From: a virus
IMG/VR virus record: IMGVR_UViG_3300043436_002883
Location: 1 to 64,000 of that record
Direction: 5' to 3' (one strand)
Length of the DNA stretch: 64,000 nt
Part shown: positions 12,325 to 64,000 of the stretch, piece by piece
How positions within the stretch are numbered: the first letter of the stretch is position 1
Layout of the letters: every line of letters starts with the position of its first letter
Notes under the pieces: model-generated
Told to the model about the DNA's origin: nothing
Seen by the model: only the letters and a program-made list of their open reading frames with translations
Database searches by the model: none
Position numbers and translations under genes: made by a program

Positions 12325-14922
12325 TTGACTAGAAAGATTAAGTACTTTTTAACCAGCCTTTTTGTAATCGGCTGGCTTTTCCTTTTTAGTCCTAATTTTG
12401 CTAATGCTAATGAGCCTCCTGCTCCTGCGGAACAAGTTGTAGTAAGCCCTGCACAACAAGCAGTAAACACAGCAATTGCAACAGCAACAACAGAAGTAGC
12501 ACAGGCAGCGCAAGCCTCAGATACAGCAACAGTAACAATAGCCACAGCGGTCCAAGCAGTAACAGCATCTAATACAGCCGTAGCTGCAGCAAATACTGCG
12601 GTGACTGCAGCAACTACTGCGGTAGCGGAAGTGTCAAATGTATTACCAGCAGTAGAAACTGCAACAACAGTTGTCCAAACAATTACTTCAACAGTAGCGG
12701 CAGTCACACAAGCTGTAGCCGCAATACCAGTAACAGCCACAACCCAAACACCAGAGGTTGTAGCGGCGCAAACAGTAGTAACGCAAGCCGTTGCTACAAT
12801 AGATTCTGCAGTAGCCACGGTAATAGCAACAGCAACTCCATTAATGACGGAGACTCCAACCACGGTTGCACAAGTAGCCACAGCAATTGCAACAGAAGTT
12901 GCCCAATCAGAGACAGCCACAGTTTTAGTTCAATCAGCACAGACAGCAATAGATACGGCTACTGCAACAGTTGCTACAGCAACTACAGCGGTGGCAGCAG
13001 TAACACCTGCACGGACAGAGGCTCAAACACAGTTAACTCAAGCAAACGTAGCAATTAATAACGCCCAAGATGCAGTAAATGCACTTGCCGCAACCATTGG
13101 CACCACAACAAATGTTTTATCTGGTGTAGATGACGCTGGCGTCCGCATGAATCTACCATTTAATTTACAAATGGGTGGGGTTACATACAACAATGTTTAT
13201 GTTGGATCTAACGCAACAATAACTTTTGGAGTAAATGAAGGTGCAAATTACTACACTACGCCAAATGCTCCCTCTATTTCTATAGCTGGATACGACTGGA
13301 CTACTTGGAGTAATGGATCTGGAATCACATATTCAACAACCACAAACACCCTTAGCGTTGCTTGGGATCTTAGAGTTTATCCTTTACAAACAGCCGAGAC
13401 ACAAATGACTCAGGTTAGATTTAACGCAGATGTAAACCCATCAAATGGAGCATGGCAAGCCGATGTAAGTGTTACTGGCCCTATCCCAAATGGGGCTAGA
13501 TTCAACGTAAGAGAGACAACGGGCGGCGCTGTAACAGATATTAATAATACAAGCACTACTACAGGCTTTACTGGAACAATCAGTCAAGGCCCCGCATTTA
13601 CACCTACACCTGATCCAAGCAATGCATCAGTTCAGGCAGCAATAGAAACAGCTAATGCACAAATTGCTACATTAAACTCAGCGGTTACAACAATTGTTGC
13701 AGCAAATACAGCAAACACAAATACAGTTATTGCGCCAATTGCAGCAGTTTCACAAAATACAATTACATCATTAAATAATGCAAGCACAGATTTAACAAAT
13801 AAAGTAACAGCAATTGCAAATGTTTCAGTAGCTGTAGAAAAAGTAACCACTGCACCTACAATAGTAGCAGCAGCACAAACAGTAATTGATGCAGTTCCTG
13901 CACCCGCACCTACTCCTCCACCTGCGCCAGCCCCAGAACCTGTACAGCCTGAGCCAGTTGCTCCACCAGTTGTTGAGCCGCCAGTAGTTGTTCCTCCCGT
14001 TGTTGAGCCACCCGCAGAAGAGCCACCTGCAGAAGAGCCACCCGCAGAAGAGCCACCCGCAGAAGAGCCACCTGCAGAAGAGCCACCCGCAGAAGAGCCA
14101 CCTGCAGAAGAGCCACCCGCAGAAGAGCCACCTGCAGAAGAGCCACCTGCAGAAGAGCCACCTGCAGAAGAGCCCCCTGCAGAAGAGCCACCCGCAGAAG
14201 AGCCACCTGCAGAAGAGCCCCCTGCAGAAGAGCCACCCGCAGAAGAGCCACCCGCAGAAGAGCCACCCGCAGAAGAGCCAGAGGCGGGATCAGAAGAAGC
14301 AGTAGAAGAATCTGTTGATGATGCATTGTCTGATGGGAAAATAGACGAATCAGAAGCAGAAGATATTTTAAATGAATTAGCAAGTGATGGTGAAGTAACT
14401 GTAGAAGAAGTTCAGAACCTTGCAGATGCTTTATCTGAAGATGGAAAATTAACTAATGCAGAAAAGGAATTAGTTGCAGATGCCCTTGTAGAATCCCTTG
14501 AAGATGGAGGGTCTTTAACTAAAGAACAAATACAAGAAGCTGGAATTGAATATAAAGATTTACCACCTTCAACACCAGTAGATGTGAGAACAGATGAAAA
14601 CGGAAATTCTGTTGTAATTACTGCAGCGGTTGCAGCACAGGTAGAATTGCTTCAAGATACAGGAGCACTGATAGAAGAATTATTTACAAATCCAGCAGCA
14701 GCATTGGCTGCATTTGGAAGCATAGGCGCAGATATGTCTGACGAAGAAAGAGAAGAGGCAACAGATATGGTTGTTGCTACAGTAGTTGCAGCAGGTGCTG
14801 CAATTAACGCTGCAGCAGTTGCCACAGGGGGAGCCACAGGAAGTGGCACAGGGGGCGGAGGAAGTTCTGGTGGAGGCTCAGGAGCCAATTCACCAGGTTC
14901 ACGAGGAGGAAGAAAATGGTAA
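12325..14922 (+). CDS. Large secreted Ala/Thr/Val-rich surface protein with PAEEP repeats
   Basis: 865 aa, TTG start with TAGGAG 9 nt upstream; promoter TATAAT near 12254. Signal peptide at residues 1-29 (LTRKIKYFLTSLFVIGWLFLF, ANA). Residues about 35-260 are low-complexity Ala/Thr/Val/Gln. A globular beta-rich part at about 270-400 (VTYNNVYVGSNATITFG, YDWTTWSNGS, GARFNVRETTG) looks like a carbohydrate- or cell-binding sandwich. A second low-complexity part, a Pro/Glu repeat array, three degenerate EF-hand-like DG(K/E)(I/V/L)T segments and a Gly/Ser-rich tail follow. Probably exported or on the virion. Resembles surface proteins of freshwater actinobacteria (inference). It is the first gene before the lysis cassette. 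Confidence 0.7.
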   Translation: MTRKIKYFLTSLFVIGWLFLFSPNFANANEPPAPAEQVVVSPAQQAVNTAIATATTEVAQAAQASDTATVTIATAVQAVTASNTAVAAANTAVTAATTAVAEVSNVLPAVETATTVVQTITSTVAAVTQAVAAIPVTATTQTPEVVAAQTVVTQAVATIDSAVATVIATATPLMTETPTTVAQVATAIATEVAQSETATVLVQSAQTAIDTATATVATATTAVAAVTPARTEAQTQLTQANVAINNAQDAVNALAATIGTTTNVLSGVDDAGVRMNLPFNLQMGGVTYNNVYVGSNATITFGVNEGANYYTTPNAPSISIAGYDWTTWSNGSGITYSTTTNTLSVAWDLRVYPLQTAETQMTQVRFNADVNPSNGAWQADVSVTGPIPNGARFNVRETTGGAVTDINNTSTTTGFTGTISQGPAFTPTPDPSNASVQAAIETANAQIATLNSAVTTIVAANTANTNTVIAPIAAVSQNTITSLNNASTDLTNKVTAIANVSVAVEKVTTAPTIVAAAQTVIDAVPAPAPTPPPAPAPEPVQPEPVAPPVVEPPVVVPPVVEPPAEEPPAEEPPAEEPPAEEPPAEEPPAEEPPAEEPPAEEPPAEEPPAEEPPAEEPPAEEPPAEEPPAEEPPAEEPPAEEPPAEEPPAEEPEAGSEEAVEESVDDALSDGKIDESEAEDILNELASDGEVTVEEVQNLADALSEDGKLTNAEKELVADALVESLEDGGSLTKEQIQEAGIEYKDLPPSTPVDVRTDENGNSVVITAAVAAQVELLQDTGALIEELFTNPAAALAAFGSIGADMSDEEREEATDMVVATVVAAGAAINAAAVATGGATGSGTGGGGSSGGGSGANSPGSRGGRKW
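14008..14281 (+). repeat. 18 tandem 15-bp repeats encoding PAEEP
   Basis: Eighteen near-perfect copies of a 15-nt unit, differing mainly at a C/T third position. They encode a rigid, acidic, proline-rich rod. Such arrays change length by slippage, so the copy number may vary between isolates. Confidence 0.97.
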
Positions 14923-46355: not shown

Positions 46356-47357
46356 ATGGATATATCTTATTATACTATTCAAGCAGGACTAAATCCTGCG
46401 GTTGGCTTTGGCTATGCGGGAAAAAATATTGTTAAATCATTAAATAATCTAGGACACTCTGTATCTTTTGCAAATCCTAAATCTACTATTCAATTAAATT
46501 TTACTCAGCCTCATCATTATAAGCTTCACAGAAATCAGTATCAAATTGGATATACTCCGTGGGAGTCAACATCTATGAGATCAGACTGGGTTGAAAGATT
46601 TAACGCTTGTGATGAAGTGTGGGCAACATCTGATTGGTGTGCACAAGTTTTTAAAGAAAACGGAATAACAAAACCAATATATGTTTATCCACACGGTATT
46701 GAAGATTTTTGGAAACCAAAGCGCAGGGTTGTTAAAGAAGGACAACCGTTAAAGTTTTTACACATTGGAGAACCATCTCCAAGAAAAGACGGGCAGCTAG
46801 CAGTAGACACTTTTATCAAGCTATATGGCAATAACCCAAACTATCATTTAACTATTAAAGCACACAATTTTAACACTGTTAGAGTTTATGATAAAGATAA
46901 TCAGTTTATGAGTCCAGAGATGGCATATAATAATATTACTTTAATAACAGATGAGATTAAAGAAGCAGATCTTGTTGCTTTGTATCACAGCCATCATGTT
47001 TTGTTGTATCCCACATGGGGAGAAGGTTTTGGGTTTATTCCGCTTCAAGGTTTAGCAACAGGCATGCCAGTTATATCAACATATGATTGGTCTCACTATG
47101 TGGACTATATGGGACCACTTAAATTAAAATCTAAACTTACAGATGAGACTTTGCCAAAAGCAGTTGGAGACGGACACATTGGAAAAATGTTTAAACCAGA
47201 TGCAAAACATTTAGAGCAACTAATGCGTGAAGTTTCTCTTGATTATAAAGCATACTCTGGTTATTATTTTGCTCAGTCAATTAAAATACATGAAGATTAT
47301 AATTGGGATCAGTTGACCAAGAAAGCATTTGATCATTTAGTAGAAAAATTTTCCTAG
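46356..47357 (+). CDS. GT4-like glycosyltransferase
   Basis: 333 aa. N-terminal GFGYAGKNIVKSL, middle GYTPWES, C-terminal FLHIGEPSPRKDGQ and YPTWGEGFGFIPLQGLATGMPVIST with the E-x-F-G-x-x-x-x-E-like nucleotide-sugar site (Gln replaces the last Glu). It transfers a sugar, perhaps to DNA, a virion protein or the wall. Hydroxyproline glycosylation would be a natural link to the oxygenases but is speculation. Confidence 0.85.
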   Translation: MDISYYTIQAGLNPAVGFGYAGKNIVKSLNNLGHSVSFANPKSTIQLNFTQPHHYKLHRNQYQIGYTPWESTSMRSDWVERFNACDEVWATSDWCAQVFKENGITKPIYVYPHGIEDFWKPKRRVVKEGQPLKFLHIGEPSPRKDGQLAVDTFIKLYGNNPNYHLTIKAHNFNTVRVYDKDNQFMSPEMAYNNITLITDEIKEADLVALYHSHHVLLYPTWGEGFGFIPLQGLATGMPVISTYDWSHYVDYMGPLKLKSKLTDETLPKAVGDGHIGKMFKPDAKHLEQLMREVSLDYKAYSGYYFAQSIKIHEDYNWDQLTKKAFDHLVEKFS

Positions 47358-47444
47358 CGCTTCCACTTTTAATTATTCTTTGGTAGAATAGGATCTTCAC
47401 ACTAAATCAAATTAACCGCTAGGCGGAGAAACAGGTAATTTTAA

Positions 47445-49379
47445 ATGTCTAAGACTATTGCAAACCCATACGAAAATTTTATTGCGTTATCACGTTACGC
47501 TAGATGGATTCCAGAAGAGAATAGACGTGAGACATGGGGAGAAACAGTAGATCGATATTTTTCTTTTATGTTAAATCATTTAAAAGAAAATCATAATTAT
47601 ATTCCAACTGAGAAGCTTGTAGCGGAATTAAAAGACGGTGTATTTAACAGAAATGTGATGCCGTCTATGCGCTCCGTGATGACATCAGGAGCAGCATTAG
47701 AAAGAGACAATGTGGCTGGATACAATTGTTCATTTGTTCCAGTAGATTCTCCACGTTCATTTGATGAAACAATGTATATTCTTATGTGCGGAACAGGTGT
47801 AGGATTTTCTGTTGAATACAAGTACGTTAATAAACTTCCTGCCGTCCCAGATTCGTTTGAAAAGTCAGATACAGTAATTGTTGTAGAAGATTCAAAACAG
47901 GGTTGGGCAAAAGCATATCGTGAGCTACTAGCATTGCTCTGGACTGGACACATTCCAGCAATTGACGTTTCTAAAGTACGTCCCGCAGGTGCACGTCTTA
48001 AGACAATGGGTGGACGCTCATCGGGACCACAACCACTTGTAAATCTTTTTGATTTTACTATTGCAAAGTTTAAAAATGCAGCAGGTCGTCAACTTAAGCC
48101 TATTGAGGCGCATGACATTATGTGTAAGATTGGAGAAGTTGTTGTCGTTGGCGGAGTACGTAGATCAGCAATGATTTCTCTTTCCAACATTAATGATATT
48201 GAGATGGCTGCAGCAAAGTCAGGCAACTGGTGGGAAAATAATACACAACGTGCACTTTCAAATAACTCTGTTGCTTATTCACGCAAGCCAGAGATGGAGC
48301 AGTTTATAGCAGAATGGAAAAACCTTTATGATTCAAAATCAGGAGAACGAGGTATATACAATGTGGCCGCAGCTCAAGCCCAAGCAGCCAAGTATGGAAG
48401 AAGAGATCCAGATATTCACTACGGAACTAACCCATGCTCAGAGATTATCTTACGTCCTTACCAGTTTTGTAATCTTTCAGAAGTCGTACTTCGTGAAAAA
48501 GATACAGTTGAAGATGTTGCAAACAAAGTTCGCCTTGCTACAATTTTGGGAACATGGCAATCAACGCTAACAGATTTTAAGTATTTACGTAAAATATGGA
48601 AAGATAATACAGAAGAAGAACGCCTGCTTGGTGTATCCTTAACTGGACAATTTGGACATAAGTTCTTTTCTGGAAAGCAGGGCTTGGATAAGTTGGAAAC
48701 AACTCTATCGGGTCTTCGTGAATATGCAAGAGAAACGAATAAAGAAGAGGCTGGGAAAATTGGGATTCCTGAGTCTGCAGCTATTACATGTGTAAAGCCT
48801 TCTGGCACAGTATCTCAATTGGTCGGGGTATCTTCAGGAATGCATCCTTGGCATTCACCATATTACATTCGTACAGTTCGTGGCTCAAAGGGAGATCCAA
48901 TTTCTACATTCTTAAAGGAAGTCGGAATTCCAGTAGAAGATGATGTTATGAAGCCAAATGATACATACGTATTTTCATTTCCAGTTAAGGCACCAGAGGG
49001 TGCAATTGTTAGAAATGATTTAACAGCATTAGACCACCTAAATACATGGTTAGTTTATCAACGTGCATGGTGTGAGCACAAGCCTTCAATTACAGTTTCT
49101 GTAAAAGAAGATGAGTGGATGGAGGTTGGGGCATGGGTATATAAGCATTTTGATGAGGTATCTGGAATTTCATTCCTGCCTCATTCAGATCACTCATACA
49201 AGCAGGCTCCCTACCAAGAAGTAGATAAAGCAGAATATGATGCACTTGTTGCAAAGATGCCTAAAGAAATTCGCTGGGAAGATTTATCTTTTTATGAGAC
49301 AGAAGATGGCACTTCTACTAATGCCACTCTTGCCTGCAGCTCAGATGGAAACTGTGAGCTTGTAGATATTTCCGCTTAA
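47445..49379 (+). CDS. nrdJ: Adenosylcobalamin-dependent (class II) ribonucleotide reductase
   Basis: 644 aa, a single-chain enzyme. Active-site Cys: C95 (GYNCSF), about C331 (NPCSE, radical Cys), about C342 (FCNL); C-terminal redox pair C631/C637. VRPAGARLKTMGGRSSGP, VVGGVRRSAMIS, KPSGTVSQLVGVSSGMHPWHSPYY and RTVRGSKGDP are typical of monomeric NrdJ/RTPR enzymes. It makes dNTPs with a B12-derived radical, not an iron subunit. The cofactor can come from the adenosyltransferase at 677-1174 and electrons from the thioredoxin at 21291. TAGAAT promoter near 47384. Confidence 0.95.
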   Translation: MSKTIANPYENFIALSRYARWIPEENRRETWGETVDRYFSFMLNHLKENHNYIPTEKLVAELKDGVFNRNVMPSMRSVMTSGAALERDNVAGYNCSFVPVDSPRSFDETMYILMCGTGVGFSVEYKYVNKLPAVPDSFEKSDTVIVVEDSKQGWAKAYRELLALLWTGHIPAIDVSKVRPAGARLKTMGGRSSGPQPLVNLFDFTIAKFKNAAGRQLKPIEAHDIMCKIGEVVVVGGVRRSAMISLSNINDIEMAAAKSGNWWENNTQRALSNNSVAYSRKPEMEQFIAEWKNLYDSKSGERGIYNVAAAQAQAAKYGRRDPDIHYGTNPCSEIILRPYQFCNLSEVVLREKDTVEDVANKVRLATILGTWQSTLTDFKYLRKIWKDNTEEERLLGVSLTGQFGHKFFSGKQGLDKLETTLSGLREYARETNKEEAGKIGIPESAAITCVKPSGTVSQLVGVSSGMHPWHSPYYIRTVRGSKGDPISTFLKEVGIPVEDDVMKPNDTYVFSFPVKAPEGAIVRNDLTALDHLNTWLVYQRAWCEHKPSITVSVKEDEWMEVGAWVYKHFDEVSGISFLPHSDHSYKQAPYQEVDKAEYDALVAKMPKEIRWEDLSFYETEDGTSTNATLACSSDGNCELVDISA

Positions 49380-55811: not shown

Positions 55812-58800
55812 ATGGCAAGAAAAGTATTACTAGAAACGTCTTATACGTTTACCCCATCAACAAGAACTATTTCGATTCCAAAAACAATCTTGAAAGAAAG
55901 ATTGCTTTTGATCACGAACGTAACAACAAATCAGGTTATTTATAATTTTTCAGATCCAAGCTTGGGTTCAACATCATACTCAGCTACTACAAACTCTGCG
56001 ATGGTAGAAAATACAACAATTGTTCTATCATATAACACTGCATCTATGACATCAACAGATAAACTTATGTTTACAATTGATACATTTGATGAAAGCTTTA
56101 CTCCAGCAGAGTCACAGCTAGACCCAGCTAACAAGTTTAGAGTTTCACAACCAAGAGCTCTTATCGACACTGATTTTGAATACGGAACACAGACTTCTAA
56201 GTGGGAAAACCTAGGATTAATTAACAATAGACCATTTTCTTATGCAAGACCAACACCTATTGCTAATATCTCTTCTATTAATCTCCCAACAGGCTCAAAA
56301 ACAGTAACAGTTACACTCAGCTCTGGAACAGCTCCAGCAAACGGAACTCCAGTTACAATCCAAGATTCATTTTTGGCAATTGCAGATGGTAACTTTATTA
56401 TCGAAAACGGCGGTGGAGGATCTAGCTTCACATATACAGCCTCTGCTATTAACAGAACAAGCATTACAGAAATCCTTGATCCAAACAAGACAATAGTTAA
56501 TCAGGGAGTTCTTTTTAGCGGTGCTCAAATTGGCGGAAGTGCATCATTAACTTATTCAGGAAGAAAGATTACAGCAGTAACATCAGTTCCTCACGGACTT
56601 GCCCTAGGAAATGAAATTGTTGTACTTGGAGCTACAGCAACAACTAATCCTCCAAATGGCAATCAAGAAGTTGCTCAGATAATTAACACAACAACATTTG
56701 CATTCTATGTAGATGCAGCACCAACAGGAACAATTGCTGGTGGAATTGCAATTTTTGTAAGACCACAGTCTACATTTGCACATAGACCACATGATGGTGG
56801 TGTTTTGTTTAGTGCTAACTCAGGCTCTAACTATGCACAATGCGTTCGTCAAACACGTCGCTACTTTAGATATCAATCAGGTAAGGGAATTCAGATTTCT
56901 TCAGGAACAGTTCTAAAGCCTTACGCAGGAATTGAAAATATAACATCAAATAACACAGTAGCAGTAACAGTTCAAACAAAAGAAAAGCACAATCTACAAC
57001 CAGGAACAGTTATTAAAATTGGTGGATGTAATGAAGTTGCATACAATGGAACATTTACAATTACGAATGTATTAAGTGCTACAGCTTTCCAATATCAAGC
57101 ACTATCAATTCCTTCAGCCACAGTTGCAACAGGACCATTCTACGCATCAGTAGAATCTTGGTATGGTTGCCAAAATAGACTAGGTGCTTTTGATGAGCAG
57201 AATGGTTTGTTCTGGGAGTACGACGGAACTACACTTTATGCAGTTCGCAGAAGCTCAACTTTCCAGCTATCTGGTAAGGTAACAGTTTCACAAAACTCTG
57301 CAACAATTCTACAATCTAGCGCAGAATTCCCAACATATTTCTCTAAGCAGCTAATCCCAGGAGATAAGATTGTAATCAGAGGACAATCATATAAGGTTGT
57401 TTCAATTGCATCAGATACATCTCTAACAATTAGCCCAGCATACCGTGGAGCAAGTGCTTCAATGTGTATTGTTTCTAGAACAGATGATACAAAAATTGCT
57501 CAAAGCGATTTTAATCTAGATAAGATTGACGGTACAGGGCCTTCTCAGTACAACATTGATCTTGGAAAGATGCAAATGTTCTACATCGACTATACATGGT
57601 ATGGTGCAGGATTCGTAAGATGGGGAGTTAGAGGGCCAAAGGGTAACGTTATTTACGTACACAAGATGCCTAATAACAACGTTAATACAGAAGCCTACAT
57701 GCGCTCTGGTAACCTTCCAGGTAGATATGAAAGCTCAACAAATCCACCTTACACAAAGGCAACTACAGAAATTTTAACAACAGATGCAGCGCTAACAGTT
57801 GCTTCTACAGCTGGATTCCCACCTTCAGGAACACTAGTTATAAGAAACGAAAATACTTATGAGTATGTTAACTACACAGGAAAGTCAGCAACAACATTTA
57901 CTGGACTTACAAGAGGAAAAGCTGGTGTAGAAGCAGGACTAACTGTTACTATAGCAACTGGAACAAGCACTGGAACAGTAGCAAGCGCAACTGGAATTCA
58001 GGTAGGACAAAGAGTTATATCTAATGCCTTCCCTGAAGGAACATTTATTTCTTCAATTACTGGTACATCAGTTCAGTTTAGCAAAGCAGCTTTAACAGAT
58101 AACCCTACTGGAGTAATTATTGCTCCAATGGGAGCCACATCCGCTCAAGCCTTTACATTTGCAGCAACTTCACCAACAATGGTTGAGTTAGCATTCCCAT
58201 CATTCTCAGCATCCATATCACACTGGGGAACATCGGTAATCATGGACGGTAACTTTGATGAAGATAAGTCTCTCGTGTTTACATACGGACAGAGAACTGG
58301 AAACTCTATTCCAGCAGGACAATCAAGAGCACTATTTGCAATCCGTGTAGCACCTTCAGTAGATAATGGTATTGCTGCAGCATTCGGACAAAGAGAACTA
58401 ATTAACCGTATGCAGCTTACACTTAAAGCACTAGATGTTACAACGTCTCTAGCTAACGCTAACCTTCTTGTAACTGCAGTTCTAAATGGAGTTCCATCAA
58501 CAACAAATGCATGGACTAATGCGGTAGGAAACGTAGCAGGAGTAGCAAACTCATCACTAGCACAGATTGTAGATTATCAAGGTAGCTCAACCACTTTATC
58601 TGGTGGAGAAACTACTGCAGGTTTCTTCGTAGGAACTGGAGCTAACTCAATCGATCTGTCAAACGTTAGAGATCTTGGAAACTCAATTGTGGGTGGAGGA
58701 TCAGTAAACTCAAATACAAACATCTACCCAGATGGTCCAGACACACTAACAATTGTTGTTGCAAATCTTGGTTCAACAACAGCTCCAGTGTTCGCAAGAC

Positions 58801-58826
58801 TATCCTGGACTGAGGCACAGGCATAG
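55812..58826 (+). CDS. Large virion/tail protein
   Basis: 1004 aa. N-terminal beta domain (LITNVTTNQVIYNFSDPSLGS), several Ig- and beta-type repeats with SIxLPTGSKTVTVTLSSG and TVQTKEKHNLQPGTVIKIGG patterns, a central WYGAGFVRWGVRGPKGNVIYVHKMPNNN, and a C-terminal jelly-roll-like region. This set is common in baseplate wedge or fibre proteins of T4-like phages. No catalytic motif is seen. Confidence 0.82.
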   Translation: MARKVLLETSYTFTPSTRTISIPKTILKERLLLITNVTTNQVIYNFSDPSLGSTSYSATTNSAMVENTTIVLSYNTASMTSTDKLMFTIDTFDESFTPAESQLDPANKFRVSQPRALIDTDFEYGTQTSKWENLGLINNRPFSYARPTPIANISSINLPTGSKTVTVTLSSGTAPANGTPVTIQDSFLAIADGNFIIENGGGGSSFTYTASAINRTSITEILDPNKTIVNQGVLFSGAQIGGSASLTYSGRKITAVTSVPHGLALGNEIVVLGATATTNPPNGNQEVAQIINTTTFAFYVDAAPTGTIAGGIAIFVRPQSTFAHRPHDGGVLFSANSGSNYAQCVRQTRRYFRYQSGKGIQISSGTVLKPYAGIENITSNNTVAVTVQTKEKHNLQPGTVIKIGGCNEVAYNGTFTITNVLSATAFQYQALSIPSATVATGPFYASVESWYGCQNRLGAFDEQNGLFWEYDGTTLYAVRRSSTFQLSGKVTVSQNSATILQSSAEFPTYFSKQLIPGDKIVIRGQSYKVVSIASDTSLTISPAYRGASASMCIVSRTDDTKIAQSDFNLDKIDGTGPSQYNIDLGKMQMFYIDYTWYGAGFVRWGVRGPKGNVIYVHKMPNNNVNTEAYMRSGNLPGRYESSTNPPYTKATTEILTTDAALTVASTAGFPPSGTLVIRNENTYEYVNYTGKSATTFTGLTRGKAGVEAGLTVTIATGTSTGTVASATGIQVGQRVISNAFPEGTFISSITGTSVQFSKAALTDNPTGVIIAPMGATSAQAFTFAATSPTMVELAFPSFSASISHWGTSVIMDGNFDEDKSLVFTYGQRTGNSIPAGQSRALFAIRVAPSVDNGIAAAFGQRELINRMQLTLKALDVTTSLANANLLVTAVLNGVPSTTNAWTNAVGNVAGVANSSLAQIVDYQGSSTTLSGGETTAGFFVGTGANSIDLSNVRDLGNSIVGGGSVNSNTNIYPDGPDTLTIVVANLGSTTAPVFARLSWTEAQA

Positions 58827-58838
58827 GAAAACATAACA

Positions 58839-59339
58839 ATGTCTATTACTAAAGGAAAGTTTCCCTACGAAACAGATTTGCAGGTTAAATCATTATCAGT
58901 TTCTGATAACTGCGGTCTTTCTGGAATAACAACATTTTCTGGAGTAGTAAAGTTAAGTGGAACACTTGACAGCACATTGGGTAATATTCAGTTTATAGAT
59001 GGGGTACAGTCAAAACAAGGTACCCCGTCTATAACACCTATATATACTAAATTTTTTAATTACACATTAAGTAATTTAAATGAAAGAGATTCCATTATCG
59101 ATATGAGAATGACTGTTGCAAATACAGTAACCATTCCAGCAGATACGGTTATCAATTTCCCAGTTGGTACTACTCTTGATATTTTACAAACAGGAGCAGG
59201 ACAAACTACGGTTCAAGCAGGACCTGGTGTAGTATTAAACTTTACTCCAGGACAAAAGTTAAGATTTCAATGGTCAATTGCAACAATATTAAAAAGAGAT
59301 GCCAACACTTGGCTTTTGTTCGGAGACTTGACAGCGTAA
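58839..59339 (+). CDS. Small fibre/structural protein
   Basis: 166 aa. LQVKSLSVSDNCGLSGITTFSGVVKLSG then a beta-rich C-terminus (FPVGTTLDILQTGAGQTTVQAGPGVVLN) with the capping-domain pattern of phage fibres. Confidence 0.72.
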   Translation: MSITKGKFPYETDLQVKSLSVSDNCGLSGITTFSGVVKLSGTLDSTLGNIQFIDGVQSKQGTPSITPIYTKFFNYTLSNLNERDSIIDMRMTVANTVTIPADTVINFPVGTTLDILQTGAGQTTVQAGPGVVLNFTPGQKLRFQWSIATILKRDANTWLLFGDLTA

Positions 59340-59355: not shown

Positions 59356-61020
59356 ATGGGTAAAAAGACGGGTAGAAAAGCGCAACTTTCTGGAGATTTT
59401 GAATATCCAGTACCACCAATAAATGTAGTTGCAACAGATGTAGGAACAAATAGACCATATAACAATGGGGCTATAAATATTACTTTTGAATACCCAACAG
59501 GCCAATTGCCTATTATAAATTACACTGCAAAGTTTACTCCTAATACTGGATCAGTAACTTATACAGATTTTTCTGCAACATCCCCAATTTTAATTACTGG
59601 AATACCTTCAGGACTAACTGGCTTTGTAACAGTAAATGCAACAAATGTAAATGGAACTTCTCAGGAGTCTACCGCAACCGCCCCTCTTTTAGTTACAACA
59701 GTTCCACAATCACCAAGAACAGTTACAGCAGTATCTAACACTACAGGTCCAGGCCATAGCACAGAAGGTACACAAACCACTACACCAGGACAACGTGGAC
59801 AAGATATTGTTTCATGGGGGCACCCAGCAACTGGTGGAAAAGATATATCAAAATATATAATTACATCTTCAGATTTAACTACACAGCCAGGCGGACTAGC
59901 ATCACCATATGAAGCTAATTTCCCAGCAACATCTATAGCAATTAGAGAGACTATGGCAAGTGCCCAGATATATACAGTAAAAGCAGTAAACGCAAATGGA
60001 ACTTCTTTAGGTTCTGCAACTGGTGAAGTTACAACATTCTTTTCACCACCAGCTTTTTTCTCCCCACCAAACTTCTTTGCGCCACCTAACTTTTTTGCGC
60101 CACCTAACTTTTTTGCGCCACCTAACTTTTTTGCTCCACCAAACTTCTTTGTGCCGCCAAACTTCTTTGCGCCACCACAATTCTTTGCGCCACCAAACTT
60201 CTTCGTGCCGCCACAGTTCTTTGCGCCACCACAGTTCTTTGTGCCACCACTATTTTTTACACCACCAAACTTCTTTACACCTCCACTATTCTTTAGCCCT
60301 CCAAGATTCTTTTCACCTCCAGGGTTCTTTAGCCCTCCAAGATTCTTTTCACCTCCAAGATTTTTTGCACCTCCAGGATTCTTTGGCCCTCCAAGATTCT
60401 TTGGCCCTCCAGGATTCTGTATACCAGCAGATACGGAGGTGCTTACTAAGGACGGATACAAAAAAGCAAAAGATATAAAGATAGATGATATTCTTTTAAC
60501 CGCTTATTTTGATAATTTGCCAGAACATTCTTCTAACTGTGCACAAGGATACATAAGCACAGACTGCATGATTCAAGTTGCTTCATGGAGAGATTCTAAT
60601 TTAATTAATCAAAAAACATTAGAGTCAAAGGTTACAAATATATTCAAGGAAACAAAATCATCAGTTGTAAGAATTAATAACAATCCTAAATATGATTTGT
60701 CATTAGTAGAACAACCTGTGATAAAAAGAGGCAATGAATATATGCTTCCAGAAGCAGCTAACCTAGAAATTGGCGATGAAATATTTAATTACGATAACCC
60801 TTCTGATCCAATAGTTGTTGAGTCCTTGGATCTTGTAGAAAAAGATACAGACGTATTTTTATTCTACAGAGAACCGTGGGGACTTCTTGTGGCAGGATCA
60901 ATGCTTGCATATAATGGATGCGAAACTTACAGCGAGATAGATCCAAATGATGTGGACCCTCATATTGCTGAAAATCCACACAATGAAGAAGAGTCGGACG
61001 CAGAATTTCAGGATAACTAA
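59356..61020 (+). CDS. Fibronectin-III/FFxPPx-repeat virion protein with Hint-like C-terminus
   Basis: 554 aa. Residues about 20-225: two fibronectin type III-like domains (PINVVATDVGTNRPYNNGAINITFEYP; VSWGHPATGGKDISKYIIT). Residues 228-353: 21 tandem FFxPPx hexamers. From Cys355: CIPADTEVLTKDGYKKAKDIKIDDILL, the N-terminal block of a Hint (hedgehog/intein) domain. Near residues 445-480 SLVEQPVIKRGNEYMLPEAANLEIGDEIF stands where the block B His should be (Gln instead); the end LLVAGSMLAYNGC resembles the intein C-terminal block with Tyr for the penultimate His. An acidic tail of about 30 residues follows. Self-cleavage or splicing is possible but key residues are altered. Confidence 0.8.
   Translation: MGKKTGRKAQLSGDFEYPVPPINVVATDVGTNRPYNNGAINITFEYPTGQLPIINYTAKFTPNTGSVTYTDFSATSPILITGIPSGLTGFVTVNATNVNGTSQESTATAPLLVTTVPQSPRTVTAVSNTTGPGHSTEGTQTTTPGQRGQDIVSWGHPATGGKDISKYIITSSDLTTQPGGLASPYEANFPATSIAIRETMASAQIYTVKAVNANGTSLGSATGEVTTFFSPPAFFSPPNFFAPPNFFAPPNFFAPPNFFAPPNFFVPPNFFAPPQFFAPPNFFVPPQFFAPPQFFVPPLFFTPPNFFTPPLFFSPPRFFSPPGFFSPPRFFSPPRFFAPPGFFGPPRFFGPPGFCIPADTEVLTKDGYKKAKDIKIDDILLTAYFDNLPEHSSNCAQGYISTDCMIQVASWRDSNLINQKTLESKVTNIFKETKSSVVRINNNPKYDLSLVEQPVIKRGNEYMLPEAANLEIGDEIFNYDNPSDPIVVESLDLVEKDTDVFLFYREPWGLLVAGSMLAYNGCETYSEIDPNDVDPHIAENPHNEEESDAEFQDN
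60037..60414 (+). repeat. 21 tandem 18-bp repeats encoding FFxPPx
   Basis: Twenty-one units of FF-(A/S/V/T/G)-PP-(N/Q/L/R/G/A) in frame. The first half is N/Q-rich and the second R/G-rich. Nucleotide identity is high in the first copies and lower later, so the array grew by local duplication. Confidence 0.97.
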
Positions 61021-61023
61021 TCC

Positions 61024-61052
61024 TTGACTATATTACGCAAAAATGCTATTCT
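61024..61052 (+). promoter_or_regulatory. Leaderless sigma70-like promoter
   Basis: TTGACT (61024-61029), 17 nt, TATTCT (61047-61052), then 6 nt to ATG 61059. It may start an operon of oxygenase and DUF6065-like genes apart from the fibre genes. Confidence 0.72.
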
Positions 61053-61058
61053 TTAATA

Positions 61059-61682
61059 ATGATATACAACAAAAAACAGTTGTACCCTGGGATATGGGTA
61101 TATCCTAATTCTTTTCCAAAAGAACTTGATTTAATTAATCGTATTGAAGATTGCGTATCCAGCAAAGAAACTGACTGGAATAGTGCAACTGTTTGTTTAG
61201 AAGAGACAGATAAAACATACAGGGATGCATGGGACTTTAAGATCTCTGCTCTTGGAAAATCTCACCCACTTTACAAAGATATTTATAATTGCCAAAAAGA
61301 TGCAGTTGAAGATTTTTGCAATATGTATTCAATTAAAATGGATTTTTGGGAATGGACTAATGTAGTTAAATATTACCCTAATCAATTTTTTCAAGAGCAT
61401 GCAGATGACGGGTGGTCATATAAATGTGCCGTATCTTTAGTCGGATATCCAAATGATGGTTATACTGGCGGTGGGCTATATTTTCCTAAATTTAATTTAC
61501 ATATAACACCAGAGATAGGGGATTTAGTTATATTTCCTTCCTCTTTTATATATTCTCACGTAGCTCTTCCAGTTGAGTCAGGAGTCAAGTATTCTTTTGT
61601 TACCATGCTAGACTACAATGATGATGCCCATACCGAAGAATATGATAGAATGATAGATAACAAACACAAGGGGAAAAAATAA
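61059..61682 (+). CDS. 2OG-Fe(II) oxygenase
   Basis: 207 aa. FFQEHADDGWSYKCAVSLVGYPNDGYTGGGLYFPKFNLHITPEIGDLVIFPSSFIYSHVALPVESGVKYSFVTMLDY: HxD, distal His (YSHV) and the binding strand are present; Lys stands where the 2OG Arg usually is. 41 nt after the FFxPPx gene. Close paralogue of the next gene. Confidence 0.87.
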   Translation: MIYNKKQLYPGIWVYPNSFPKELDLINRIEDCVSSKETDWNSATVCLEETDKTYRDAWDFKISALGKSHPLYKDIYNCQKDAVEDFCNMYSIKMDFWEWTNVVKYYPNQFFQEHADDGWSYKCAVSLVGYPNDGYTGGGLYFPKFNLHITPEIGDLVIFPSSFIYSHVALPVESGVKYSFVTMLDYNDDAHTEEYDRMIDNKHKGKK

Positions 61683-61683
61683 T

Positions 61684-62424
61684 ATGCTTCCAAATGCAGA
61701 AACTATATATCCAGGAATTATTGTATACAGAGACGTCTTTAAAAAAGAGTACAATCTGGCAGAAAGACTAGAAAAGGTTTTAGAAAAACAAGAAAGCAAG
61801 AAGCACTGGAACCTGGCTCAAACAGGCTTTGATACACTAAATACAGATTATCGTGATGCCTGGGATTTTAAAATTAAAGAAAATGACGGCGGATCCCTAA
61901 TGTATGGCAATGGAAATCATGTTCAGCAAGAAGATCTTACAGAGGATGAAATAGAGCTAAGACAGATATGGAGAGACTCAAAAGGAGTACAGCTTAACGC
62001 TGTAGCAGATTACATGAAAATGTTTCAGCTTCCACCCTTAAACTATTGGGAATCTTTTAACTTTATTAAGTATGCAAAAAATCAACACTTTAATGTCCAT
62101 TCAGATCACGGATATTCATATGTGTGTGTGCTTTCATCAGTAGGTTATATTAACGACGACTACGAAGGCGGAGAGTTGTTTTTCGATAAGCTTGGCTTAA
62201 AGATTAAACCTAAAGCTGGAGATCTATATCTTTTTCCTTCTTCTTATATTTATTCTCATGCAGCAATGCCAGTAAAATCTGGAACTAAATATGCAATTGT
62301 TACAATGTTAGATTATCAAGAGGCTCCACACACACCTCTTTATAGAGAAATAGAGGCAGGCTATGAATATAACCATTTTACCGAAGGTAAAAAATTTATC
62401 CCAGCAGAACAAAGGGATAATTAA
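61684..62424 (+). CDS. 2OG-Fe(II) oxygenase
   Basis: 246 aa. HFNVHSDHGYSYVCVLSSVGYINDDYEGGELFFDKLGLKIKPKAGDLYLFPSSYIYSHAAMPVKSGTKYAIVTMLDYQ aligns with the previous gene along its length, showing tandem duplication. Iron ligands intact; the Arg position is Lys. Confidence 0.87.
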   Translation: MLPNAETIYPGIIVYRDVFKKEYNLAERLEKVLEKQESKKHWNLAQTGFDTLNTDYRDAWDFKIKENDGGSLMYGNGNHVQQEDLTEDEIELRQIWRDSKGVQLNAVADYMKMFQLPPLNYWESFNFIKYAKNQHFNVHSDHGYSYVCVLSSVGYINDDYEGGELFFDKLGLKIKPKAGDLYLFPSSYIYSHAAMPVKSGTKYAIVTMLDYQEAPHTPLYREIEAGYEYNHFTEGKKFIPAEQRDN

Positions 62425-63138
62425 TTGATTAAGGTAACAGCATATGATAATTTGCAAGATACAGCTAACATAGAGCCACTCTCTGCAAAAAGAGATTGGA
62501 TGGACCAGACGGAGCATAATCATGCATACAGGTGCTTTCCACTAACTCTAGCAAATCAATTAGGCTGGGGAATATCTTTTCCAGAAGATATAACTTTTAT
62601 GTGGGATGGAGTAACAAGTACCTATCCACATAATGTTCAGGTTTTACAAGGACAAAAATACTGCGAAACTGGTAGAGGTCACTCAACAATTAATTTTAAA
62701 ACAAATCTAACTTTTGAAACAGAAAGTAATTACACATTGCTATCTTTCCCAGTTCCAAATATGTTTGTTGATGGAGCCCAGGCCGTAACAAGCTTACTAA
62801 CAACATCTTTTTTTGGTAGCCCATTGCCAGTTGCATGGAAGATTACAAAGCCATACGTTCCAATCACAATCAAAGCTGGACAACCAGTAATTGCAATTTT
62901 GCCAATATCTTTAACAGAGCTAAACAACTCTACTCTTGAAGTAAAGGATATAAGGCATATGCCACAGCCACACTTTGAGAATGTTCCAACTTATGAAGGA
63001 GCAGTTGCTGCAGCTAAAGAGGCGGCAGAAAAACAAATTTGGACAGACTACTATAGAGATGCCACAGACTATCTAGGAAATAAACTAGGATCTCATGAAG
63101 TAAAATCAATTAAGCTGAAAGTCAATAAATACAAATGA
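62425..63138 (+). CDS. DUF6065-like protein
   Basis: 237 aa, TTG start directly after the oxygenase stop. YRCFPLTLANQLGWGISFPEDITFMWDG...YCETGRGHSTINFKTNLTFET...LLSFPVPNMFVDG...PVAWKITKP...AGQPVIAILPIS matches DUF6065, a beta-rich family of unknown function in phages and bacteria that often accompanies 2OG oxygenases. Confidence 0.75.
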   Translation: MIKVTAYDNLQDTANIEPLSAKRDWMDQTEHNHAYRCFPLTLANQLGWGISFPEDITFMWDGVTSTYPHNVQVLQGQKYCETGRGHSTINFKTNLTFETESNYTLLSFPVPNMFVDGAQAVTSLLTTSFFGSPLPVAWKITKPYVPITIKAGQPVIAILPISLTELNNSTLEVKDIRHMPQPHFENVPTYEGAVAAAKEAAEKQIWTDYYRDATDYLGNKLGSHEVKSIKLKVNKYK

Positions 63139-63845
63139 AAATTGTTTTTAATTCAAATAGACACTATAACAATAAAGATCTTGTTCCAAGCCCTACAAAA
63201 AATGTTATGCCAGGATGGTTTAAGAATGCTAGCAAGTACTGGAAAGATTTTGAAGGAAATGATGTAGTCGGTCCTCCAGACAATCAAAGAGGCCCAGGCT
63301 TTAAAGCCTGTCCAGCCTTACATGATATTTTTACGACAGGATATATGCTTACAACACCATGCGACATTAATGTTTTTATAAAAGACGGATACACATTAGT
63401 GCAAGCAGAGCCAGGATTTGATGACTTTGTTTCAATTCGTTCGCACATGGGAGAATTTCATTATCCAGAAGGATATTATAAATTTGTTTATCACTGGTAT
63501 CCAAATTGGGGATTTACCCTTCCAGAAGGGTATAGCGCTTTAGTTGTACAGCCTATTAATAATTTTGAGCTGCCTTTTTTAACGGTAGGCGGTATAATTG
63601 ATAGTGATAGGTATGCCCCGCCAGGGCTAATGCCATTTTTTATTAGAGATGGCTTTAAAGGAATTATTCCAAAAGGAACTCCCTATGCACAAATAATTCC
63701 AATCAAAAGAGAAGAATGGAAATCAGAGTTTAATTTGTATACGTATCAAGAAATGCAAAAAAGACACAATGACCATGTGGCCATATATAGAGCAAATACT
63801 GGAGTATATAAAAAAAATACCTGGGTACCCAAGAAATATGAATAG
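63135..63845 (+). CDS. Protein related to the DUF6065-like neighbour
   Basis: 236 aa, ATGA overlap. MPGWFKNASKYWKDF, FKACPALHDIFTTGYMLTTPCDINVFI and PEGYSALVVQPINNFELPFLTVGGIIDSD are a pattern seen in marine and freshwater phages. The beta-rich second half (GFKGIIPKGTPYAQIIPIKREEW) resembles that of the preceding gene. Confidence 0.68.
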   Translation: MKIVFNSNRHYNNKDLVPSPTKNVMPGWFKNASKYWKDFEGNDVVGPPDNQRGPGFKACPALHDIFTTGYMLTTPCDINVFIKDGYTLVQAEPGFDDFVSIRSHMGEFHYPEGYYKFVYHWYPNWGFTLPEGYSALVVQPINNFELPFLTVGGIIDSDRYAPPGLMPFFIRDGFKGIIPKGTPYAQIIPIKREEWKSEFNLYTYQEMQKRHNDHVAIYRANTGVYKKNTWVPKKYE

Positions 63846-63854
63846 GAAAAATAA

Positions 63855-64000
63855 ATGGAAAACACTGTAGAGAACCCTTCGGATATTAGAAAGCACAGAA
63901 CATCAATCACGCCTTCTGGTTATTTTGGCAATGGTAAAGAAAACATTGTTGAAATAGAGAACTTGTTAACGGAAGAAGAAAACGAATACCTTTTAAATTT
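63855..64000 (+). CDS. N-terminal part of a probable 2OG oxygenase (cut by window)
   Basis: 48 codons read to the window end. SGYFGNGKENIVEIENLLTEEENEYLLNF resembles the start of the oxygenase at 23561 (IFIIEDFLSEDTCNFLI), the helix-strand start of this family. GGAAAAATAA ribosome site. The iron-binding part lies outside. Confidence 0.55.
   Translation, partial: MENTVENPSDIRKHRTSITPSGYFGNGKENIVEIENLLTEEENEYLLN

Follow-up and report, generated by a model that had tools for sequence, protein, structure and literature searches.

Results

An FFxPPx repeat protein followed by oxygenase genes

The stretch of DNA analysed here, referred to as the window, is bases 1–64,000 of the 109,282-base virus record IMGVR_UViG_3300043436_002883, and the subject of this work is a gene close to its 3' end that encodes a long FFxPPx repeat array, together with the run of genes for 2-oxoglutarate (2OG)-Fe(II) oxygenases that follows it. 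The 554-residue product, which starts with ATG and which we call FFxPP-Hint, consists of two FN3-like domains, an array of 21 FFxPPx units that keeps a strict six-residue register from residue 228 onward (for which FFAPPNFFAPPN and FFSPPGFFSPPG would be synthetic peptide versions), a 166-residue Hint fold beginning at Cys355, the first cysteine C-terminal of the array, and a short acidic tail (Table 1). F1, F2, P4 and P5 are constant in 21/21 units while positions 3 and 6 are free to vary, yet the codons for FF and PP vary synonymously (TTC/TTT; CCA/CCT/CCG), which indicates that the pattern is selected at the protein level and is not just a product of DNA slippage.

A direct search with the FFxPP-Hint protein against Pfam, PHROG and NCBIfam gave no match, and its N-terminal part falls below the Pfam fn3 threshold; its relatives (43–100% identity, 14 loci) allowed the domains to be assigned, as fn3 is matched in 39 of 48 that were aligned. 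The Hint part of the window protein also has no Pfam match, but a profile matches a solved bacterial intein-like domain (E=7e-7), and among the aligned Hint-like tails Intein_splicing is matched in 11/37 and Hint_2 in 6/37. An AlphaFold2 model of this part (predicted local distance difference test score, pLDDT, 88.9) has as its best PDB matches in Foldseek the Hint structures of bacterial intein-like (BIL) domains, inteins and hedgehog proteins, and by the profile match and this model the Hint fold is real. A preliminary description, made from the sequence alone, had recognized this architecture, from the two FN3-like domains through the 21 hexamers to a Hint-like C-terminus at Cys355, and all of it stands.

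Downstream of the array gene, after a gap of 38 nt, lie six 2OG-Fe(II) oxygenases, oxyA to oxyF, of which oxyC–oxyF are at the window edge and beyond. The preliminary description had placed two oxygenases right after the repeat gene, which is correct, and had seen what looked like the start of another; that start (oxyC) is real, but the count was too low, since the run is one of six enzymes and not of two plus one. Five of the six exceed the PF13640 cut-off of 27 bits and oxyC lies slightly below it. In an alignment of the six window-virus enzymes with five relatives the iron-binding HxD...H triad is constant (His114, Asp116 and His167 in oxyA), and the residue that binds the 2OG carboxylate reads as Lys in oxyA, oxyB, oxyD and oxyF and as Arg in oxyC and oxyE.

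A profile of the oxygenases run against the PDB has as its top match the Bacillus anthracis prolyl 4-hydroxylase (P4H; 4.8e-11), followed by prolyl 3-hydroxylase 1 (P3H1; 1.7e-10) and then by more P4Hs, PKHD-type enzymes, the lysyl hydroxylase LH3 and EGLN1. Searched singly, oxyB and oxyF each have the P4H structure 3itq, which is the B. anthracis enzyme, as the first PDB match, and oxyD has a weak P3H1 match alone. By the profile, and by oxyB and oxyF singly, prolyl hydroxylases thus appear to be nearer in sequence to the oxygenases than other 2OG enzymes are. Because the nearest solved structures are prolyl hydroxylases, a protein substrate is favoured, with proline the likeliest residue.

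Linkage of arrays and oxygenases across viruses

FFxPPx arrays are common among the viruses of IMG/VR, where a degenerate nucleotide pattern spelling three FFxPPx units matched at least 120 stretches; the counts given below for these viruses are among the matches listed. The six-residue period is exact at 1096 of 1137 array steps, position 3 is nearly always taken by Ala, Ser or Gly, and about half of the units have Gly at position 6. Run against 84,980 bacterial and archaeal species, the same pattern gave 11 matches, all of them short chance runs or low-complexity frames. Searches of phage isolates with tblastn and blastn, using the N-part, the C-part, the array DNA and two divergent relatives, returned nothing relevant, although the array was possibly masked as low complexity, so that absence from isolates is unproven for very divergent proteins.

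If the array is a substrate of the oxygenases, the two are expected to co-occur. A same-strand oxygenase starts no more than 2 kb downstream of 67 of the 77 distinct FFxPP genes that have at least 2 kb of downstream sequence, and none lies upstream of the 64 that have 2 kb on that side. The 88% non-redundant set gives 45/51 downstream and 0/53 upstream, with a spacing that is often 12–90 nt. The reverse search agrees: an FFxPP array lies upstream of 50/50 oxyB relatives with at least 2.3 kb of upstream sequence. Several exceptions to the linkage come from viruses that have a further FFxPP gene, and it is that gene which adjoins the cluster. The preliminary description had named related phages with the repeat gene but no oxygenases as the finding that would speak against it; when 30 whole records were searched, chosen mainly because no oxygenase had been seen near the array or because the locus was short, 28 encoded these oxygenases, at 1–17 each, and the remaining two are fragments of 8.5 and 13.5 kb. 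The whole-record search thereby rules out that the apparent exceptions are oxygenase-free viruses. Three genomes of 107–113 kb encode 15–17 oxygenase-like genes apiece.

Viral collagen-like genes served as a control, and an oxygenase lies downstream of 5/37 of them and upstream of 0/36 (Fisher p=1.7e-14 for downstream oxygenases, FFxPP genes versus control), so that the linkage cannot be put down to fibrous proteins in general. The oxygenase model behind this control, built from FFxPP loci, does detect distant cyanophage enzymes, and the control was therefore able to see oxygenases outside those loci. The collagen-like loci, with oxygenases only downstream and never upstream, display a weaker form of the same linkage.

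Shared descent could imitate such a pattern, and a homologous portal family is indeed present in 20/25 records tested. However, four large FFxPP viruses (98–205 kb) lack that portal, and also have no match to the Pfam portal model that includes it; all four records also encode oxygenases, and in the neighbourhoods that were read these sit beside the array together with DUF6065-like genes. A search for a T4-type portal in this second lineage found no match, and its positive control likewise found none. The N-terminal region in this second lineage is short and PASTA-like by eye, with no Pfam match in the short proteins and weak PASTA matches in two longer FFxPP proteins. More generally, the array is preceded by FN3, PASTA-like or other domains and followed by a Hint domain, a Cys-rich region, an S74 chaperone or nothing: in the main lineage, among 101 proteins, 54 have C-termini that are Hint-like in length, 38 end no more than 30 residues past the array, and one ends in a Peptidase_S74 chaperone domain, which is typical of phage fibres. 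Array and enzymes are the constant pair, and the flanking domains vary.

Gene order of the cassette

The genes 3' of the array gene lie on the same strand in the order oxyA, oxyB, DUF6065, phrog_7084, oxyC, oxyD, oxyE, oxyF, beyond which come a LamG-domain protein and then portal, protease and capsid genes (Table 1). The large upstream neighbour of FFxPP-Hint encodes a protein with 43–45% full-length identity to cyanophage structural or fibre proteins, and a homologue of the short gene between them sits before nearly every FFxPP gene for which upstream sequence exists. From these structural neighbours, and from the one relative with an S74 tail-fibre chaperone domain, we infer that FFxPP-Hint is a virion protein.

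Table 1. Features of the FFxPP-Hint locus; positions beyond 64,000 are those of the full record.
Feature	Position	Strand	Evidence
Virion structural protein (phrog_5838), upstream neighbour	55812..58826	+	PHROG 5838, 1027 bits
Short tail-fibre or structural protein	58839..59339	+	PHROG structural and tail matches
FFxPP-Hint protein, 554 aa	59356..61020	+	Open reading frame; relatives in 14 loci
N-terminal part, two FN3-like domains	59356..60036	+	fn3 in relatives
21 x FFxPPx array, proposed hydroxylation substrate	60037..60414	+	Repeat register
Hint fold, Cys355 to Asn520	60418..60915	+	Profile match, AlphaFold2 model, alignment
oxyA, 2OG-Fe(II) oxygenase	61059..61682	+	PF13640 8.8e-8; alignment
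oxyB, 2OG-Fe(II) oxygenase	61684..62424	+	PF13640 8.7e-12; PDB 3itq 2e-5
DUF6065 protein, predicted dUTPase-like fold	62425..63138	+	PF19541 5.7e-34; model
phrog_7084 protein	63135..63845	+	PHROG match; aligned with DUF6065
oxyC, start of third oxygenase	63855..64000 (ends 64538 in full record)	+	PF13640 26.7 bits
oxyD	64531..65391	+	PF13640 above cut-off
oxyE	65385..66101	+	PF13640 above cut-off
oxyF	66094..66696	+	PF13640 above cut-off

The two genes within the run that are not oxygenases, one of which the preliminary description had rightly called DUF6065-like, are kept in the cassette almost as regularly as the oxygenases themselves (62425–63845 in the window). A model of the DUF6065 protein (pLDDT 92.2) has dUTPases as its best Foldseek matches (probability 1.00, E about 1e-3, ~10% identity), so that a dUTPase-like fold is predicted, and the phrog_7084 protein is probably a distant relative of it, to judge by their alignment. 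Possibly these proteins are a trimeric virion or chaperone part. Directly 5' of oxyA is a promoter-like TTGACT-17-TATTCT (61024–61052) that would leave the transcript nearly leaderless, but it may be a chance occurrence, because shuffled sequence gives more promoter-like matches than the region does.

Discussion

A large group of uncultured water viruses thus carries an FFxPPx protein, probably a fibre protein, that is almost always found beside a cluster of prolyl-hydroxylase-like enzymes. We favour, at a probability of roughly 0.6, a reading in which the virus carries these genes as a cassette that modifies its own fibre protein after translation, prolyl hydroxylation of the array included. 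The oxygenases would hydroxylate the array before or during assembly, most likely at the prolines of the PP pairs. The array itself would probably form a polyproline-II-like rod, because the period of FFxPPx is compatible with one of three residues and gives two aromatic/proline faces and one small-residue face; 4-hydroxylation would then make the rod stiffer or provide hydroxyl groups that serve in packing, binding or glycosylation. That each virus has several enzymes suggests that these share out the work, by position or by FFxPP protein. Taken together, this suggests that such phages chemically harden or prime their own structural protein.

It is tempting to go further and regard FFxPPx as a new fibrous class whose rod structure depends on virus-supplied, multi-enzyme hydroxylation of proline (and perhaps phenylalanine), encoded by a cassette that moves between unrelated phages of aquatic bacteria. 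Such a class would be a phage counterpart of the maturation of animal collagen or plant extensin, but to this wider proposal we give somewhat less than even odds.

The preliminary description had proposed the repeat as the substrate of the oxygenases, and that proposal is well supported by genome context, the nearest enzymes and domain shuffling, the hydroxylation itself being a prediction. Several points weigh against array hydroxylation. FFxPPx is no known P4H recognition sequence. The classic one is PPG, which occurs at about half of the units overall but at 3/21 in the window array. Six different enzymes exceed what a single repeat would require, and PF13640 enzymes may have other substrates as well. 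The linkage may in part reflect shared descent, as most FFxPP viruses have a homologous portal and a single clearly separate lineage was found. Finally, the chlorovirus P4H has no known role, and hydroxyproline was not found in chlorovirus virions (review PMC7019647), which calls for caution here.

One alternative is that the FFxPP protein or its neighbours are indeed the target, but at sites other than proline, for example at Phe, Asn/Asp or Lys, or in the FN3, Hint or Cys-rich regions. That the six enzymes are divergent (18–45% identical to oxyA) suggests several targets, and the profile matches do include lysyl hydroxylases and PKHD-type hydroxylases; yet the FFxPPx array is the only part common to all of the linked proteins and the top profile matches are prolyl hydroxylases, so we consider this unlikely. 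It seems more improbable still that the oxygenases serve metabolism as auxiliary genes, or modify nucleotides or DNA, and owe their place next to a fibre gene to inherited order only. The portal family common to most FFxPP viruses would fit that explanation, as would the distant cyanophage relatives of oxyB that can sit between uvsX and primase-helicase genes, but it has to contend with a linkage that is strict in both directions, with no oxygenase upstream, and that persists without such a portal and with other N- and C-terminal domains, and with closest solved structures that are protein hydroxylases.

The remaining alternative keeps prolyl hydroxylation and adds Hint autoprocessing, by which the fibre would be trimmed at about residue 354, as the preliminary description had suggested. 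The Hint fold is real, as is the Cys355 at the edge of the array, and by a simple motif, hence as a crude count, Cys, [ST]xxH and HN occur together in 7/54 tails (HN by itself in 24/54). The window Hint resembles BIL, intein and hedgehog C-terminal domains in its fold, N-terminal Cys block and C-terminal Asn, and keeps Cys355, the N-terminal nucleophile, and Asn520. It differs from them in that two of three catalytic motifs are substituted, with Gln453 (SLVEQ) in place of the TxxH His and Tyr519 in place of the penultimate His, in having Gly521 at the +1 position (LAYN|G), and in ending a fibre-type protein in whose family it is dispensable. The TxxH His is retained in a minority of relatives and the catalytic Cys is lost in 6/37 aligned tails. 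Most importantly, about half of the FFxPP proteins that retain oxygenases have no Hint, so trimming cannot be a general step of the system. We therefore hold trimming in the window virus to be quite improbable and read the Hint as one of several exchangeable C-terminal caps; the window copy probably has a structural role, with weak cleavage at most.

Our literature search, which included DUF6065, found no prior description of FFxPP arrays, of the FFxPP-oxygenase cassette or of phage fibre hydroxylation. A virus-encoded P4H is not itself new, and the nearest precedent is the chlorovirus enzyme, which like those here is virus-encoded and of P4H type. The peptide substrates of the P4H of chlorovirus PBCV-1 are said to have resembled repeats of viral proteins. 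The chlorovirus case is one of a single enzyme in a eukaryotic virus, however, whereas here the viruses are tailed phages with six or more enzymes each, and a dedicated repeat protein is encoded alongside. As summarized in a later review, the PBCV-1 enzyme acts on proline peptides (Eriksson 1999, cited in PMC7019647). Closer in sequence, oxyA and oxyB match phrog_61, and the phage PHROG 61 oxygenases and viral P4HA belong to the same superfamily and have the same metal-binding residues (PMC12774648, PMC9301287). Phage oxygenases with P4H-like structure have been catalogued with no substrate assigned (PMC12774648), and P4HA is among the commonest aquatic viral metabolic genes, present at 62% of Baltic water stations, although its use to the virus 'remains cryptic' (PMC9301287).

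The linkage described here names a likely substrate, the adjacent repeat protein, for the P4H-like genes of one large phage set, and thereby makes the cryptic viral-P4H question directly testable. If confirmed, it would mean that hydroxylation by virus-encoded enzymes is how some phages bring a fibre to maturity; the oxygenases would then belong to virion assembly and not to metabolism, and the annotation of such genes would have to change. A further use of FFxPPx would be as a new, self-contained set of substrate and enzymes for engineered hydroxylated protein rods.

Collagen-like phage fibres share with FFxPPx a proline-rich fibrous repeat and, in a minority, a downstream oxygenase. The array fails the collagen criterion of uninterrupted Gly-X-Y, however, and differs in its period of six rather than three, in that Gly is not obligatory, in its paired Phe and in a far tighter linkage to the enzymes. 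Where the cyanophage relatives of the oxygenases were checked, their neighbours are DNA-replication genes or, upstream, an S74 tail protein, unlike in the FFxPP cassette. The isolated Synechococcus phage Sf-FS3 (1–4558) has two 2OG oxygenases, one of which is annotated as prolyl 4-hydroxylase, directly behind a Peptidase_S74 tail protein; in its general arrangement of a tail protein with oxygenases downstream it is the same as the FFxPP cassette.

The window virus is related to Streptomyces phages of the Stanwilliamsviridae such as BillNye, to which its portal is ~60% identical and with which it shares the order glycosyltransferase, ribonucleotide reductase ... portal, protease, capsid; its host is likely an actinobacterium. 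In the 29 kb of BillNye that was read there is neither an FFxPP array nor such an oxygenase. The glycosyltransferase and ribonucleotide reductase genes, in BillNye-like order, are at 46356–49379 in the window, and one may speculate that this glycosyltransferase could act on hydroxylated residues. Actinomycetia phage DSL-LC01 carries a related structural protein (41% identical over part of its length) and, in the 37 kb read, several collagen-like genes but no FFxPP array or such oxygenase. Elsewhere in the window, at 14005–14280, an open reading frame of 865 residues contains ~18 copies of a 15-nt unit with the consensus GAGCCACCCGCAGAA, which could encode an EPPAE-type repeat and would make the product a second proline-rich repeat protein of this virus.

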